Source: Alphaproteobacteria bacterium
GTDB lineage: Bacteria; Pseudomonadota; Alphaproteobacteria; Rs-D84
DNA length: 64,000 nucleotides
Direction of reading: 5' to 3'
Assembly: GCA_017511715.1 (NCBI GenBank)
Contig: JAFWJF010000002.1
Coordinates: forward strand, 1-64,000
Numbering within the stretch: the stretch's first letter is position 1; every line of letters starts with the position of its first letter. Below, in pieces: positions 39,937-50,349 of this stretch. The notes under the pieces are model-generated. The model searched no databases and was not told where the DNA came from. It saw only the letters and a program-made list of their open reading frames with translations. The position numbers and the translations under genes were made by a program.

Positions 39937-40551
39937 ATGAAAAAAATAATATCTTTGTTGTTTGGACTTATCATTTGTTTTAATGCAAATGCTGATGTTG
40001 ATAAAAATTTGATAATAAGTGCAGAAAAGTACTTGAATTCTATAACTGGTTTGCAAGGTGGTTTTTCCCAGACGGCCGATGGTAAAACCCAAAACGGTAT
40101 TTTTTCAATGTTGCGCCCTGGACGGGTAAGGCTTGATTATAAAAACGCGCCGATTCAATTAATTTCTGATGGCAAAGATTTGTATTTTTATGATAAATCT
40201 TTGGACCAAATTACAACAGTTCCTTTGACCAGTACGCCTGCTGGTATTTTGGTGCGTAAAAAGATAGATTTACAAAACGCAGATATCAATGTGTACGAAA
40301 CAGATTCTGATAAAAATACATTTACATTAAAAATGAATTTGCGTGATAAAGAAGGTCTGGGGCACATGGATGTTGTGTTTGATAAAAAGCCTGTTAAATT
40401 GAAATCTTGGTCTGTGGTTGATGCAACCTCTACCAAAACGGATGTTGTGTTTGATAATTTGAAAACGAAAACAGATTTTGGAAAAAATTATTTTCAATTA
40501 TCGCGTCATAAGACTGCTTCGACAAATAGTGGCGATGATTTTTATGATTAA
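39937..40551 (+). CDS. lolA: Outer-membrane lipoprotein carrier LolA
   Basis: Periplasmic chaperone carrying lipoproteins to the outer membrane. A signal peptide (LFGLIICFNANA) is followed by LQGGFSQTADGKTQNGIFSMLRPGRVRLDY, matching the LolA fold motif. Length 204 aa. The start is the ATG two bases after the previous stop with a weak SD. Its presence fits the many lipoproteins in this window. Confidence 0.9.
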   Translation: MKKIISLLFGLIICFNANADVDKNLIISAEKYLNSITGLQGGFSQTADGKTQNGIFSMLRPGRVRLDYKNAPIQLISDGKDLYFYDKSLDQITTVPLTSTPAGILVRKKIDLQNADINVYETDSDKNTFTLKMNLRDKEGLGHMDVVFDKKPVKLKSWSVVDATSTKTDVVFDNLKTKTDFGKNYFQLSRHKTASTNSGDDFYD

Positions 40552-43102: not shown

Positions 43103-43639
43103 TTATTGATTTAATGTTCCCCATGCGGCTTTGTATCCGCCATCACGAGTCAGTTTTAATTTAGCATTGTTTAATTGTGCTGCGGTCAATCCGCGTATTA
43201 TGTAAGATTGTTGCAGACGTTCGCCGTTGGTACTTTTGATTTGTGGTAAATCAATTGCCATTGCTTCTGTGTCACAGCATACGCTGTCATTGCAGGCACC
43301 GCATTGATAAACTTGGGCAGTATATATTTTCCCTGGGCGCAAATGTATCAAGTCAACATTCATTTTCAAGCCGCTTTCTGTTTCCTTGAAATCAATGTAG
43401 CCCATTTCTGCATTGCCACCATCCGCAGAACGTGTGAACATTTTTGCGCGAACATTATGAACGTCATCCCCGCTGTAGTTTTGTTGAAACACGACAGGTT
43501 CAGAATTTTTTTTGTGCTTTTTATGCATTTTTTGTTCATGATATTTGTCGTGGGTATGAGTTGGGCAACTTGTACAGCCCGCAGTTAAAAGTGTGACACC
43601 ACAAAGCGATGCCATTAAAAACAATGATTTGTTTTTCAT
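43103..43639 (-). CDS. Lipoprotein, His/Lys-rich start, SodC-like fold (tentative)
   Basis: Lipobox TAGC (LLTAGCTSC) followed by a His and Lys rich stretch (THTHDKYHEQKMHKKHKK). The rest has a pattern reminiscent of Cu,Zn superoxide dismutase-like barrels (MGYIDFKETESGLKMNVDLIHLRPGKIYTAQVY), with two close cysteine pairs (CGACNDSVCC), but I do not see the usual copper-binding His set in order, so an active SOD is not supported. 178 aa. SD AAAGGAGA before the ATG. Confidence 0.6.
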   Translation of the reverse strand: MKNKSLFLMASLCGVTLLTAGCTSCPTHTHDKYHEQKMHKKHKKNSEPVVFQQNYSGDDVHNVRAKMFTRSADGGNAEMGYIDFKETESGLKMNVDLIHLRPGKIYTAQVYQCGACNDSVCCDTEAMAIDLPQIKSTNGERLQQSYIIRGLTAAQLNNAKLKLTRDGGYKAAWGTLNQ

Positions 43640-43804: not shown

Positions 43805-43880
43805 GGATGCATAGCTCAGTTGGTAGAGCAACTGACTCTTAATCAGTGGGTCCAGGGTTCGAGTCCCTGTGCGTCCACCA
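43805..43880 (+). tRNA. tRNA-Lys (anticodon CTT)
   Basis: Cloverleaf folds by hand: acceptor GGATGCA pairs with TGCGTCC (one G-T pair), D arm GCTC...GAGC, anticodon arm ACTGA-CTCTTAA-TCAGT with anticodon CTT, T arm CAGGG-TTCGAGT-CCCTG and an encoded CCA. 76 nt. Confidence 0.97.
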
Positions 43881-43947
43881 CAAATAAAACCGCCCAATCG
43901 GGCGGGTTTTTATTTGTGTCGCACAGATGGACGAGAAGCCTTTTGCA
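43862..43947 (+). repeat. Direct repeat, copy 1 (tRNA-Lys tail and terminator)
   Basis: 86 bp beginning inside the T arm of tRNA-Lys and running through the CCA, the terminator hairpin and the flank (ACGAGAAGCC). The second copy begins 177 bp further on and differs at one base (position 43941 T, 44118 C). Confidence 0.9.
43881..43916 (+). terminator. tRNA-Lys terminator
   Basis: Long hairpin CAAATAAAA-CCGCCC-AATC-GGGCGG-(G)-TTTTTATTTG, a strong Rho-independent signal directly after the tRNA CCA. Confidence 0.9.
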
Positions 43948-44038: not shown

Positions 44039-44124
44039 AGTCCCTGTGCGTCCACCACAAATAAAACCGCCCAATCGGGCGGGTTTTTATTTGTGTCGCA
44101 CAGATGGACGAGAAGCCCTTTGCA
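44039..44124 (+). repeat. Direct repeat, copy 2 (tRNA-Lys tail without tRNA body)
   Basis: Second 86-bp copy. It keeps the T-arm 3' side, acceptor 3' strand, CCA and terminator, but the rest of the tRNA is missing, so it is a remnant and not a gene. Confidence 0.9.
44058..44093 (+). terminator. Second copy of the tRNA-Lys terminator
   Basis: Same CCGCCC-AATC-GGGCGG hairpin with a T run, inside repeat copy 2. Confidence 0.85.
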
Positions 44125-44152: not shown

Positions 44153-44161
44153 TGATAAAAT
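44153..44161 (+). promoter_or_regulatory. Extended -10 of the surface-lipoprotein/Slam operon
   Basis: TG-A-TAAAAT 28 bases before the ATG, which has an AAGGGG SD. Confidence 0.5.
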
Positions 44162-44189
44162 AACAATATATAAAGTCAAGGGGAAAAAC

Positions 44190-45524
44190 ATGAAAAGATA
44201 TTTTCTTTTAACATCAGTTTTGGCACTGGCTGCATGTGGTGGTGGTTCCGGTGGTGGTGGCGGAAATGTCGGCGATGCTATTAATGGCAGAATGCCAGGA
44301 AACCCTACCGAACATTTGCGTGCTTCAGATTTAATTGGTGATACAGATAATAATGAAATAACCAGTATGGCATCGGCAATAGTGGTCAAAAATGGTTCTT
44401 CTTGGAGTAGTGTTGCACGTTCAGCAACAGATCCGGACAAAACATCGCACCCTGGATATACAATTTATAAGTTAGACAATGTTGATTTCAAGTTAGCAGG
44501 TGAAGATGATGCGACTTTTAATTTCGAAATCAATGACGATGGCCGTATTGTAAGAGCTGTCGCAAACGGCCAAAAGATAGAACGCGATACAACAGATACG
44601 ACCTTATTTAAAGGAAAAATCTTTCAGTTCGTAAAAGATGGTGATGACAAAGAAGTGGTGACTGTTATGGATAATGATCCAGAACATCCTGTTAATCAAG
44701 CTGCTCTGAGTGCTGCATTGGAGGCTGCAGTTACCGCTGAAAAGTTAACACAAGATGAAGCAAATGCCGGTCATTGGAATTATTTGGAACAAAATTGGAA
44801 ATTTGACACCAGCGGCAAAGATAAAGGTTTGACTTATTCTGATTTTGGGTATTTTACATCAACAAATCTTAGAAAATTATCCGATATCAGTTTTGATTCA
44901 GAAGGAAATGTTCAGGGAACAGAGAACCCAACAGATCACGAATCTGTGATGTTGTTCGCCGGCGGATATGGTATCTTACCAGAAGCAACCAGACCAATCA
45001 ACGGTGCGCATTTTACCGGGACAGCAATTGGGGTAATAAATACCTCTATTGATGGAACGGATGGTGAATTGTCTGGTGACCAAAAAGAGATCTATGAACA
45101 TAGTTGGGAAGATCAGGAACACGGTATTTATAACAAAACTGAAACAGCAAAATTGTCGACAAAGAAAGCGGAATTGGACATAGATTCAAACGGAAATCCA
45201 ATTATATGGATGCCGTTTGGCAGTGACGGTACCGCCACAGATGTTCGCGATGGTTCCAGTGTTCAATGGTATAATGTTAGGGTGACCGATGGCGATGTAG
45301 AATTTGTGGTGCCAACGGGTAAAACAGAATCTGATATTACAAAACGTTTTTCACACGATAATGATGCGGCTGACAACCCAATACAAGAAGTTGATGCCAG
45401 ATATTATGGTATAAATACCCCGGTTGAGGCAACTGGCATAGTTGTTTATGAACAGGAACACGATTTGGGTGATGGCAATACAACGCGTAACTTTAATTTT
45501 CAGGCGGCTTATGGTATGAAATAA
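44190..45524 (+). CDS. Predicted Slam-dependent surface lipoprotein
   Basis: Lipoprotein: signal peptide, lipobox AAC (LALAACGGGSGGGGG) and a long glycine tether, as in surface-exposed lipoproteins. The body is rich in Asp, Asn, Thr and Gly. The end (ARYYGINTPVEATGIVVYE, then closing FQAAYGMK) resembles the C-terminal barrel domain of Slam clients such as TbpB/HpuA (pattern F/YYG..A.E..G, final strand). The next gene, three bases on, encodes a Slam-type exporter, which fits cognate client and exporter. The start at MKRYFLLTSV is set by SD AAGGGG and signal peptide; longer in-frame extension would cross the tRNA repeat. Ligand unknown. Confidence 0.8.
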   Translation: MKRYFLLTSVLALAACGGGSGGGGGNVGDAINGRMPGNPTEHLRASDLIGDTDNNEITSMASAIVVKNGSSWSSVARSATDPDKTSHPGYTIYKLDNVDFKLAGEDDATFNFEINDDGRIVRAVANGQKIERDTTDTTLFKGKIFQFVKDGDDKEVVTVMDNDPEHPVNQAALSAALEAAVTAEKLTQDEANAGHWNYLEQNWKFDTSGKDKGLTYSDFGYFTSTNLRKLSDISFDSEGNVQGTENPTDHESVMLFAGGYGILPEATRPINGAHFTGTAIGVINTSIDGTDGELSGDQKEIYEHSWEDQEHGIYNKTETAKLSTKKAELDIDSNGNPIIWMPFGSDGTATDVRDGSSVQWYNVRVTDGDVEFVVPTGKTESDITKRFSHDNDAADNPIQEVDARYYGINTPVEATGIVVYEQEHDLGDGNTTRNFNFQAAYGMK

Positions 45525-45527
45525 ACC

Positions 45528-46871
45528 TTGAAACGATTATTGGCTTTTTTTGCGTTTCTTGTTCTTCAGCCCACGTTTTTGTGGGCTGAATCTGATTTGA
45601 ATAAGTCCGAATCTATGTCTGCGCTGGATACTGTCCGGGTGGCGGGGCGTTTGGTGAATATGGGAGATTTTGACCGTGCACAGCAGTTGCTGATACAATT
45701 ACCAAAAACAAACAGTTTGTCGGTTGAACTGGAAAGGTGGTTCTTACTGGCACAGATGGAACAGCGCAAGGGGAATTATGAAGAGGCTGTGCGAATATAT
45801 CGCAAAATACTTGATGACCAACCAGATTTGGCGCGTGTTCGTTTCGAATTGGCGTTATGTTATATGAAGATGGGTTATTGGTACCGGGCAGATTATCATT
45901 TGCGCCTTGCGATGGCAGGTAAAGATTTGCCTGAAAACGTGAAACAGATGATGGCTTATTATCGCTATGTTGTGCGCCAAAATAAACGTTGGAACGTTTG
46001 GTTTAATTTTGGTGCCGCCCCGGACAGTAATATTAATAATGGTAATGGTGGCGAAGAGTGCGTTGTCAATGGCTGGGGGCGTTTTTGTCGCAATCTTAAA
46101 GAACCAGAATCTGTTATGGGGTCAAATCTGACTTTGGGGGGCAGTTATGAATTTGTGCTGTCTGATCATTGGCGTTGGAAAAGTGATGCGAATATTTATT
46201 CTAATACGTATAATAATCACGATTATGACGATTTGTATTTGTCGGCATCTTCTGGGCCTAGGTATATCTGGTCGCGTGGTGATGTTTGGCTTGCCGCAAT
46301 AGGGGCACGTCGGTGGTATGGGAATGAAAAATATAATTATTCTTATGGTGCCAAAATAGATACAAATTATGATTGGACACGAAAAATGTCTTCAGGGCTG
46401 TCGTTGCGTTATATGGAAAATAAATATGATGAATATGGCGCTTTTTTTAATGGACAAACATATTCATCAAATCTGCGATTTGTGTATTCTTTTAATGCGC
46501 GTTTGTATGGACTGCTTCGGGGCGGGGTAAATCGCGAAACGACAGTGATTTCAAGTTATTCTTATTGGCAGCCAAATTTTGCCATTGGGTTGGGTATAGA
46601 AATGCCTTATGGTTTTCATATATATGCGGAACCGTCATTTTTTATGTCTAAATATGATGAAGCCCAATGGGTGGTTAAAGATAATGCTTTTGTACAAATC
46701 ACAGAGCGCGATTTTGTTCAGAGATATTCGTTATCAATTTCTAATAATAAATTTGATGTATGGGGGTTTGTGCCGACTTTTACAATATCTTATACAAAGC
46801 GCGATTCAAACATATGGCAAAGAGAATACAATAAAACAACTCTCGAATTTACAATGCAACAGCGGTTTTAA
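45528..46871 (+). CDS. Slam-family outer-membrane exporter (type XI secretion)
   Basis: Translocates lipoproteins to the cell surface. A signal peptide (LAFFAFLVLQPTFLWA) is followed by an N-terminal TPR-like periplasmic domain (about residues 35-150: GDFDRAQQLLIQLP, QRKGNYEEAVRIYRKIL, LALCYMKMGYWYRADYHL) and a barrel of about 290 residues (from NVWFNFGAAPDSNINN to EFTMQQRF). This two-part architecture is that of Slam/DUF560 proteins as I know them. Start is TTG with weak spacing to the upstream stop (TAA-ACC-TTG). The Slam label is by architecture and should be checked by profile search. Confidence 0.82.
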   Translation: MKRLLAFFAFLVLQPTFLWAESDLNKSESMSALDTVRVAGRLVNMGDFDRAQQLLIQLPKTNSLSVELERWFLLAQMEQRKGNYEEAVRIYRKILDDQPDLARVRFELALCYMKMGYWYRADYHLRLAMAGKDLPENVKQMMAYYRYVVRQNKRWNVWFNFGAAPDSNINNGNGGEECVVNGWGRFCRNLKEPESVMGSNLTLGGSYEFVLSDHWRWKSDANIYSNTYNNHDYDDLYLSASSGPRYIWSRGDVWLAAIGARRWYGNEKYNYSYGAKIDTNYDWTRKMSSGLSLRYMENKYDEYGAFFNGQTYSSNLRFVYSFNARLYGLLRGGVNRETTVISSYSYWQPNFAIGLGIEMPYGFHIYAEPSFFMSKYDEAQWVVKDNAFVQITERDFVQRYSLSISNNKFDVWGFVPTFTISYTKRDSNIWQREYNKTTLEFTMQQRF

Positions 46872-47582: not shown

Positions 47583-48249
47583 ATTACACAGAATCACTTT
47601 GTTGTTGGGGCAAGAGGCTGTAAACAAATTGCGAAACGCAACGGTTATGGTTGTCGGTTGTGGTGCGGTTGGTTCTTTTGCAATAGAAGCCTTGGCACGA
47701 AGTGGGGTTGGACATATTATAATTATAGATTTTGATGATGTCGAAGAATCAAACATAAATCGTCAATTGTTTGCTCTTGATTCAACTGTGGGCAATGCAA
47801 AGGTTGATGTCGCAAAAGACAGAATACTTGATGTTAACCCAAATATAAAAGTTGATGCAAAAAAATTGTTCTTTGATTCAGAAACAGACTTGGCTATAAA
47901 ACCTGACTTCGTTATTGATGCAATCGATTCTGTTCAATCAAAAATTGCACTTTATAAGTGGTGCATGAAAAACAAAATACCTTTTGTTTCTTCTATGGGG
48001 GCGGCACGTAAAACGGATATATCAAAAATTAAAATAGGCAAAATATCAAAAACCAGCGTTTGTCCCCTGGCATCAAAAATAAGACATATTGTTCGTGAAG
48101 AAAAACTGAAAGATTTTCCCGTGGTTTATTCGACAGAAAACGCAAGTCCACAAAAAAATGGCGGTCGTGAATTTGGTTCTATTATAACAGTCACGGGGAC
48201 CTTTGGGTTAATGTTGGCTGATTTTTGTATAAAAAAATTGATTTCATAA
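47575..48249 (+). CDS. tcdA: tRNA threonylcarbamoyladenosine dehydratase TcdA
   Basis: E1-like (ThiF/MoeB) enzyme making cyclic t6A37 in tRNA. Nucleotide-binding motif VVGCGAVGSFAIEALARSGVG (about residues 20-40), SNINRQLFALDSTVGNAKVDV, and DAIDSVQSKIAL. Length 224 aa fits TcdA. Ends GTFGLMLADFCIKKL. Co-translated with the TatD gene. Confidence 0.88.
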   Translation: MNRLHRITLLLGQEAVNKLRNATVMVVGCGAVGSFAIEALARSGVGHIIIIDFDDVEESNINRQLFALDSTVGNAKVDVAKDRILDVNPNIKVDAKKLFFDSETDLAIKPDFVIDAIDSVQSKIALYKWCMKNKIPFVSSMGAARKTDISKIKIGKISKTSVCPLASKIRHIVREEKLKDFPVVYSTENASPQKNGGREFGSIITVTGTFGLMLADFCIKKLIS

Positions 48250-48377
48250 GTCTTTTGTATACGGCTGATTTTGTGCTTTGTGATAAATATCCTAAGGATA
48301 CATGCCTATATAAATATTATATGCTGTCTGATAGAATACGAAGTGTTGAGATTAATCAGCAACAAAAGGAGATGATT

Positions 48378-48980
48378 ATGAAAAAACTTATTGCCACATC
48401 AATGGCAGTATTAATCGCTGCCCCGGCATTTGCAGGTGGGCGGGCATATGAACAACAAACGACCAGCTTTTTGGGTTGGGACATTTTGCCATATGTTGCA
48501 TTACGTGGTGGTGCTACATACGGTAATATCAATTACAGTTTTAATGATACAAAAGAAAGTGTGTCTCAAAACTTGTACCAGCTTCGTGCAGCATTAGGTT
48601 TGGCTATTTATGATAAATCGCGTGTTGAAATCGAAGGTTCTTTCTTTACGAAAGGGAACAAAACGAAAACTTTTGGTGATTTCCAAAATGCCGGTGTTTC
48701 CACAGAGAACATAGAATTGATGGCAAATGTATATATGGATTTGTGGCACTTTAAGTACATACAGCCTTTTGCAGGACTTGGTGCTGGTATGGCCTTTATC
48801 AATACACAGGCTGCAGATGTTAGCAACGATGGTACAAAGTTTTCCGCAATGGGTACTTTGGGTTTAGCAATGCCATTTGGCTGCTTTAATGTCGAAGTTG
48901 CAGCGCGTTATAACTATATTGACATTATGTCTGGGATGCACAATTTCAGCGGTGATGTTGGTATTCGTTATATGTTCTAA
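48378..48980 (+). CDS. Small outer-membrane barrel protein (OmpW/Opa-like)
   Basis: Signal peptide (VLIAAPAFAGG) then eight strand-like segments (YVALRGGATYGNINYSF, YQPFAGLGAGMAFI-type, VEVAARYNYIDIM) ending VGIRYMF, the classic last strand with Phe. Length 200 aa fits the eight-stranded Opa/OmpX/OmpW-like class. SD AAAGGAG lies six bases upstream. The 128-nt leader before it contains a small palindrome (TATCC-TAA-GGATA) and no gene. Confidence 0.85.
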   Translation: MKKLIATSMAVLIAAPAFAGGRAYEQQTTSFLGWDILPYVALRGGATYGNINYSFNDTKESVSQNLYQLRAALGLAIYDKSRVEIEGSFFTKGNKTKTFGDFQNAGVSTENIELMANVYMDLWHFKYIQPFAGLGAGMAFINTQAADVSNDGTKFSAMGTLGLAMPFGCFNVEVAARYNYIDIMSGMHNFSGDVGIRYMF

Positions 48981-49059: not shown

Positions 49060-49068
49060 TTGGGTGTT

Positions 49069-50349
49069 ATGAATAAATACCTAATATTTTGTTCTTTGAT
49101 ATTCGTTCCTTTTGGCGTTTTTGGTGCAGTTCTAACCAGACAGGAAGATTCTTTGATTATTGCCCAGATTCATGATTATGATTATATCAATTTTGCAGAA
49201 ATCAAAAATACTGTGGCAGATAAATATGAATTTGACAATTCTGTTGTGTTCATAGATGATTTTTCTGATTGGCAAAATTGGAACGGATATGCTGTTTTTG
49301 GTACAAATGTTTCATTTCGAATCAAGAATCTTGGTATGGCAAATAACGGGGAAAAGTTGGAACATGTGCCTGCTTCGGACGAAGTAAATGTGTCTGTGAA
49401 AGATGCAGATAATTTATATACGGTGAATTTTACTCATGATGCAGGTTCTTTGTTTCTTAATTTAGTTCGGGAAACAGATTATACCAAAATATTCAGAGAT
49501 TCACGGGGAACATTTCTTGAAAATTTGAGAGCAAATCAGCCAAATAATAAAATGTTATCTGTGATGGACAGGGCGACTAGCATGCAAGAAATAAATTCTG
49601 TGATGAATTCGTCTTATCATTTCAATCCGATAATTTTAATGCGGCCGATTAAGACAATAAATCAAGCGGCACTATCAAACTTTTTGTCTGATTTTCGTCC
49701 AGGAATTGGTGCAGATATAGATTATATTATCTCTGATAAAACAAGTGATTATGGTGGCCATCTTTACTATGCCGATAAATATGAAGATTTGTATTTTAAG
49801 ATAGGGCTGAATTTGAATAGGTTTTCTTATGCTGACAATACTAATGAATTTACTGGTATGGTATATGGAATTGATGTTAGGGCTAAACAATATTTGAATA
49901 ATTTTTGGATAGACGGTTTGTTTGGGATTAATCGTGCAACATTTAATGCTGACTTTGTATATTCAAATGGAAGTGTTTCAAATAAGCCGACGGGCATGTC
50001 TGAATATGCACGTGTTGGTTTGGGATACGATATTAAACACGTATCTGATTTTGTTTTGTCGCCATTTGCAGGTATGATATTCCAAAAATCAGATATTTCA
50101 GGAATGACAGATTCAGATATAAATTTATATTCTGGTATTATTGGAAAATACGATTTTGTAATGGATGGTATAAAATATGAATATGGTGCATCGCTTGCCA
50201 CAGACGAAAGCGCAAATATAGATTTAGGTATAAAAGTTGGGTTCTTGTCTGTTTTGGATAACGCTGGGGCTTATGCGACAGTCAACATATTTCAAAATGA
50301 TTTCGGAACAAATTATAAATTGTCGGTTAATGCTAATTTAAGGTTTTAA
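49069..50349 (+). CDS. Autotransporter-like outer-membrane protein
   Basis: A signal peptide (IFVPFGVFGA) is followed by a passenger-like region of about 130 residues and, from about residue 150, a barrel-like half with many alternating segments (FKIGLNLNRFSYADN, GMVYGIDVRAKQYL, WIDGLFGINRATF, ARVGLGYDIKHV) ending LSVNANLRF, the autotransporter last-strand signature. The middle NQPNNKMLSVMDRAT helix before the barrel is compatible with the linker helix. Short passenger, function unknown. Start set by the -10 box (ATG), not the TTG nine bases earlier. Confidence 0.75.
   Translation: MNKYLIFCSLIFVPFGVFGAVLTRQEDSLIIAQIHDYDYINFAEIKNTVADKYEFDNSVVFIDDFSDWQNWNGYAVFGTNVSFRIKNLGMANNGEKLEHVPASDEVNVSVKDADNLYTVNFTHDAGSLFLNLVRETDYTKIFRDSRGTFLENLRANQPNNKMLSVMDRATSMQEINSVMNSSYHFNPIILMRPIKTINQAALSNFLSDFRPGIGADIDYIISDKTSDYGGHLYYADKYEDLYFKIGLNLNRFSYADNTNEFTGMVYGIDVRAKQYLNNFWIDGLFGINRATFNADFVYSNGSVSNKPTGMSEYARVGLGYDIKHVSDFVLSPFAGMIFQKSDISGMTDSDINLYSGIIGKYDFVMDGIKYEYGASLATDESANIDLGIKVGFLSVLDNAGAYATVNIFQNDFGTNYKLSVNANLRF

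Follow-up and report, generated by a model that had tools for sequence, protein, structure and literature searches.

Two adjacent genes of an alphaproteobacterium of the order Rs-D84 most likely work as one unit for surface display by type XI (Slam) secretion, in which a lipoprotein client is paired with the outer-membrane exporter that would carry it to the cell surface. We give this reading, with the mechanism proposed below, a probability of about 85%. Both genes lie on the forward strand of the 64-kb stretch of DNA that was analysed (the window), as do all of their features described here. The client (44190–45524; 444 aa) ends three bases before the TTG start of the exporter (45528–46871; 447 aa), as a preliminary description of the DNA had stated. 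Both of the reading frames in that description are present, but the start that it gave to the client, at 44153, is upstream of the actual ATG at 44190 and out of frame with it.

The host genome (G000) is alphaproteobacterial, 0.85 Mb long in 8 contigs and 97% complete. The nearest named loci come from metagenome genomes of gut and rumen, among them Candidatus Enterousia, a reduced-genome and probably partner-dependent genus of the GTDB order Rs-D84 (PMC12306168). Members of Rs-D84/Enterousia live in the gut, have not been cultured, carry genomes of about 1 Mb or less and seem to rely on a partner; the paper that describes them makes no mention of lipoproteins or secretion (PMC12306168).

The exporter belongs to the Slam family

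By profile, by its TPR-plus-barrel architecture and by a predicted 14-strand barrel, the product of 45528–46871 belongs to the Slam family. It matches PF04575 SlipAM (DUF560) over the full length of the model (positions 1–288 of 288; E 1.3e-30; 107 bits against a cut-off of 22) and is the only ORF in the host genome to do so. Several TPR families match as well (E 1e-8 to 1e-5), and TPR_Slam is 0.3 bits short of its cut-off (34.9 against 35.2 bits). The AlphaFold2 model, made from an alignment of 16 Slams (pLDDT 85.5), has seven TPR helices, 14 long strands and a C-terminal Phe. Together with the Pfam matches, it places a predicted periplasmic TPR domain at residues 32–152 (45621–45983), followed by the predicted outer-membrane barrel (45990–46868), for which the 14-strand OmpG is among the fold matches. 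The preliminary description, which had called this protein Slam-like, had named as grounds for rejection the lack of a Slam profile match or of either barrel in predicted structures; a full-length match was found, and the barrels of both exporter and client were predicted. In its N-terminal TPR domain, 14-strand barrel and SlipAM membership, the protein resembles Neisseria meningitidis Slam1 and Slam2 and Xenorhabdus NilB, the genes of which likewise lie beside that of a lipoprotein with a C-terminal barrel.

The client is a remote relative of TbpB

The client gene is preceded by a Shine-Dalgarno-like run, AAGGGG (44178–44183), and opens with a type II signal peptide (44190–44237; MKRYFLLTSVLALAA followed by CGGGSGGGGG), in which the lipobox LALAA precedes Cys16. 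This Cys is invariant in the alignment of 54 clients (A2), and half (50%) of the 12 residues after it are Gly in 63 clients, which agrees with the Gly-tethered lipoprotein originally described. The flexible Gly/Ser tether (44235–44324; CGGGSGGGGG...) has low model confidence (pLDDT <50 for residues 5–44). It leads into a beta-rich, handle-like N-terminal domain (44325–44768; model strands 63–161, helices 170–193) and then a predicted TbpB-type barrel (44772–45521) with the motifs LTYSDFG, FTGTAIG, YYG..PVEATG and AYGMK. The AlphaFold2 model as a whole, with its disordered anchor, beta-rich N-terminal part and C-terminal barrel, reaches a pLDDT of 82.5 and a pTM of 0.81. The family motifs besides the lipobox Cys are LxYSDFG, FAGGY, FTGxAxG, NWYDV and YYGxxxPTEATG...AFGxK in the 54-sequence alignment. 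The N-terminal domain varies in length and sequence, with a mean pairwise identity of 23–24% among these segments. Overall, clients share a mean identity of 30%, compared to 61% for the exporters, so that clients change far faster.

The TbpB-like last domain that had been proposed gains nothing from searches with single sequences. One client sequence gave nothing usable against Pfam, NCBIfam and the PDB, a profile from 27 clients had no match in the PDB, and a pattern scan of the genome contigs with the client alone found no relative. TbpB_B_D (PF01298) matched 0/54 family members at E 0.01, no relevant Pfam family matched any of them, and the model was found above its Pfam cut-off in 0/201 genomes of the order. 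Matches of the client to DUF4258 (E 0.015) and to a Fab heavy chain were dismissed as chance.

Support comes instead from predicted structure and from comparing families. When the client family was aligned by hhalign with TbpB_B_D proteins from other alphaproteobacteria (alignment A4), the two matched with 95% probability (P 3.2e-8) over 168 columns reaching the C-terminus, at about 12% aligned identity and with the motifs in register: FYGPxAxExGG...FGAKR of the TbpB_B_D proteins corresponds to YYGxxxPTEATG...FGxK of the client. The controls gave P 0.62 (Slam against A4) and P 0.039 (client against Slam). A4 itself retrieves TbpB, LbpB, NHBA, fHbp and haemophilin from the PDB, and the 11 best Foldseek matches of the client model in the PDB are all LbpB or TbpB (best E 4.3e-5), albeit with low TM-scores (about 0.2) and no close superposition. 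As judged by profiles and models, the client is therefore a distant member of the TbpB-type superfamily, with a single lobe, that the curated Pfam model overlooks. It shares with TbpB, LbpB, NHBA, fHbp and haemophilin a lipobox (in those that are lipoproteins), a flexible anchor, and a beta handle followed by an 8-strand barrel that ends at the C-terminus, but differs from them in its one lobe and hypervariable N-terminal part.

Loci that combine TbpB_B_D proteins with Slam were also found in other alphaproteobacteria. Separately, a 2.3-Mb genome of the class outside Rs-D84 (G543) has 117 first-look TbpB_B_D candidates, located on contigs C20, C27, C67 and C92 and in part in locus L223; its scored domains repeat within giant open frames of about 1700–3150 aa.

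The two families are linked across Rs-D84

Among 201 Rs-D84 genomes, 97 have both families, 8 the client only, 10 Slam only and 86 neither. Thus, the client is matched strongly (E of 1e-15 or better) in 105/201 and Slam is present in 107/201; the Fisher value of 4e-35 is not to be taken literally, as the genomes are related and some of them trained the client profile. A search with the Slam alignment found 80 loci. In 63 of the 76 named loci with room upstream of Slam, a client lies within 300 bp (59 upstream and five downstream, with one locus having clients on both sides), a figure that is partly circular, because the profile used to find clients derives from neighbours of Slam; the genomes, besides, are not independent of one another. 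Three further loci of the 76 have a client at 310–314 bp, and some loci carry two or three in tandem. The Slam and client families are genetically linked across the order. The genomes with a strong client match and no SlipAM match are G011, G021, G032, G048, G050, G052, G068 and G105, some of which are incomplete assemblies; candidate readings are that contigs are missing, that the exporter was lost or that export takes another route.

Locus organization and exchange

In many genomes, the pair occupies a conserved site: TatC, M23 peptidase, tRNA-Lys, client(s), Slam, TatD, ThiF, MiaB. At this site, locus L055 has Slam without a client and L117 has two clients, and mean pairwise identity is 0.60 for TatD, 0.76 for ThiF, 0.68 for Slam and 0.35 for the client. 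The trees conflict with each other. The flanking genes group the window with L162 and L193 (100/99) and the client groups it with L193 (93/96), whereas Slam groups it with L117 (100/100). Compared to that of L117, the exporter is 41% identical in the first 60 residues and 87–97% identical in 60-residue windows starting at residues 61 to 241; because of this step, recombination probably swapped the body of Slam, the breakpoint lying close to the signal peptide. Slam and client would then probably have been exchanged separately in this window, which is new as far as checked. A Slam that functions with an exchanged client would fit recognition via the conserved barrel.

Just upstream of the client is an 86-bp direct repeat (99%; 43862–43947 and 44039–44124, 177 bp apart), which comprises the 3' end of the tRNA-Lys and its terminator and resembles an attachment site. 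It is not tied to client presence: the repeated tRNA-Lys 3' end also occurs in L055, L162 and L174, and L055 has no client, so that the repeat is unsupported as the mark of a client-carrying insertion.

Other envelope genes lie nearby. A small lipoprotein is encoded on the reverse strand at 43103–43639 (lipobox LLTAGC; no convincing Pfam match) and is also kept, at the same site, in L117 and L055. A small outer-membrane beta-barrel protein (48225–48980) weakly matches the rickettsial adhesin Adr family (NF052636; E 3.6e-6, below cut-off). Between the ThiF/outer-membrane protein genes and MiaB, an autotransporter beta-domain protein (49060–50349; E 1.5e-7) takes a position where the gene in the relatives L117 and L055 has a different length.

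A conserved RNA hairpin at the junction

The RNA across the gene junction would form a hairpin (45565–45590) with a perfect 11-bp stem, 40 nt past the client stop and within the signal-peptide codons of Slam; the region folds with a z of -2.9. Every one of the 42 tightly coupled loci, picked for having Slam closely after the client and a recognisable signal-peptide motif, keeps the hairpin with 7 or more of its 9 pairs, and all nine pairs are present in 35/42. In 38 distinct sequences, 97.4% of cells are paired, compared to at most 49% when the alignment is slid by 1–3 columns, and the pairs covary (31 cells with a double change, where shuffles give 7.8). RNAalifold recovers the same helix. 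Rfam has no family for it (a mir-205 match at E 0.78 is chance), and no cis-acting RNA of this kind is known to us from any Slam system. A TTG or GTG start, assigned by pattern, is used by many Slams of the coupled loci. In loci with a wide gap between the genes, it is common to find an ordinary GC hairpin about 14–31 nt past the client, in many cases with T's after it, and other strong GC hairpins in the window sit mostly at gene ends. We read the junction hairpin as the 3'-end hairpin of the client, overlapped by the Slam gene, which may lower Slam expression relative to that of the client or protect the client mRNA.

Alternative explanations

Could the hairpin be simply a by-product of the conserved signal-peptide sequence (LPxxxWAE) rather than a selected RNA? 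It does sit in signal-peptide codons, and three core pairs are invariant. However, in pair 8-27 (UA 24, AU 8, GC 4), the third base of an Ala codon changes together with the second base of the Leu, Gln or Trp codon before it, and changes of Trp to Ser, Arg or Leu are matched at the third base of Pro. A synonymous base thus pairs with a non-synonymous one in the other arm, a pattern for which protein constraint alone does not account. Slams without an upstream client, moreover, have a stem of 9 or more in only 1/21 cases, that one at a contig edge, and in the wide-gap loci a terminator-like hairpin occupies the same place after the client. The by-product explanation is therefore unlikely, and a selected RNA is preferred. 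An alternative for the proteins, that the TPR-barrel protein exports a polysaccharide in the manner of BcsC or PelB and its neighbour is an unrelated periplasmic protein, we consider highly improbable. Among solved structures, the Slam model matches the folds of BcsC and PelBC best, and TPR plus barrel is common to both kinds of exporter. Yet there is no solved Slam among the fold matches, so another TPR-barrel exporter is to be expected as the best one; the SlipAM match is full-length, the ORFs and Pfam matches around the pair include no synthase or polysaccharide genes, and the linkage with a single lipoprotein family is tight over the whole order.

If the pair is a Slam unit, does it serve to acquire iron or haem, like TbpB, HpuA or haemophilin, with the ligand delivered to a TonB-dependent receptor? 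The client barrel falls within that superfamily, whose known Slam-exported members often act with TonB-dependent receptors (PMC5449769), and 120/185 known Slam-lipoprotein clusters include such a receptor (PMC5449769). The TbpB and HpuA piracy systems have a partner receptor, whereas a profile search found no TonB-dependent receptor barrel in the host genome, and the plug domain occurs in only 2/201 Rs-D84 genomes. Iron or haem acquisition is distinctly unlikely on these grounds, and direct binding of a partner is favoured over it because the receptors are almost absent from the lineage.

Proposed mechanism

By analogy with characterised Slam systems, the client would be made as a lipoprotein precursor, acylated at Cys16 and taken to the outer membrane by Lol, while Skp would keep it unfolded. 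A LolA gene lies in the window (40039–40500) and an OmpH/Skp-family gene on contig 5 of the same genome; Lol and Skp components both serve Slam cargo elsewhere (for Skp, PMC9090332). The TPR domain of Slam would then capture the client by the TbpB-type barrel at the client's C-terminus, after which the barrel of Slam would translocate the protein across the outer membrane to the outer leaflet, where it would hang on its Gly tether with the variable N-terminal domain facing outward. The displayed client would most likely bind a partner directly, as an adhesin for glycans or cells of the host or for another microbe, a role suggested by the absence of receptors and the variability of clients; NilC is the adhesin precedent (PMC9100927). 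The hairpin would most likely keep client mRNA in excess over Slam mRNA. A wider proposal, which we hold tentatively and at somewhat under even odds, is that Rs-D84 represents a receptor-independent type XI branch, with exchangeable, fast-changing partner-binding clients and a dedicated covarying hairpin, within the signal-peptide codons of the exporter, that sets the ratio of cargo to exporter.

Relation to known systems and significance

The preliminary description had taken such a pair to be new for an apparently gut-type alphaproteobacterium. The exporter is not: Slams have been reported from every proteobacterial clade (Hooda et al. 2017, PMC5449769), earlier papers cover Slam systems as such and those of alphaproteobacteria (PMC5449769, PMC8406197, PMC12282271), and the other loci described above agree with this. 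Sphingomonas, for example, has TbpB_B_D surface proteins beside Slam, likewise alphaproteobacterial Slam-plus-lipoprotein pairs, but these have Pro-Thr repeats and Pfam-recognised barrels (PMC12282271) in place of Gly tethers and unrecognised ones. A full-text search found no paper that joins Slam, TbpB and alphaproteobacteria, and some of these Slams may already be listed in supplementary tables. What does appear new, as far as checked, is the hypervariable client family outside Pfam, the near-absence (2/201) of the usual partner receptors, and the covarying junction hairpin. These also set the system apart from Slam1, Slam2 and NilB, as does its occurrence in reduced-genome gut alphaproteobacteria.

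The range of type XI cargo reaches beyond the barrel model of Pfam that serves to detect it, and as this model misses the client, present cargo counts are probably too low. Slam export is here set apart from TonB-linked iron uptake, and the junction hairpin is a new element that can be tested directly. For Rs-D84 itself, a widespread surface-display system with hypervariable clients offers concrete candidates for contact with the partner on which these bacteria seem to rely.
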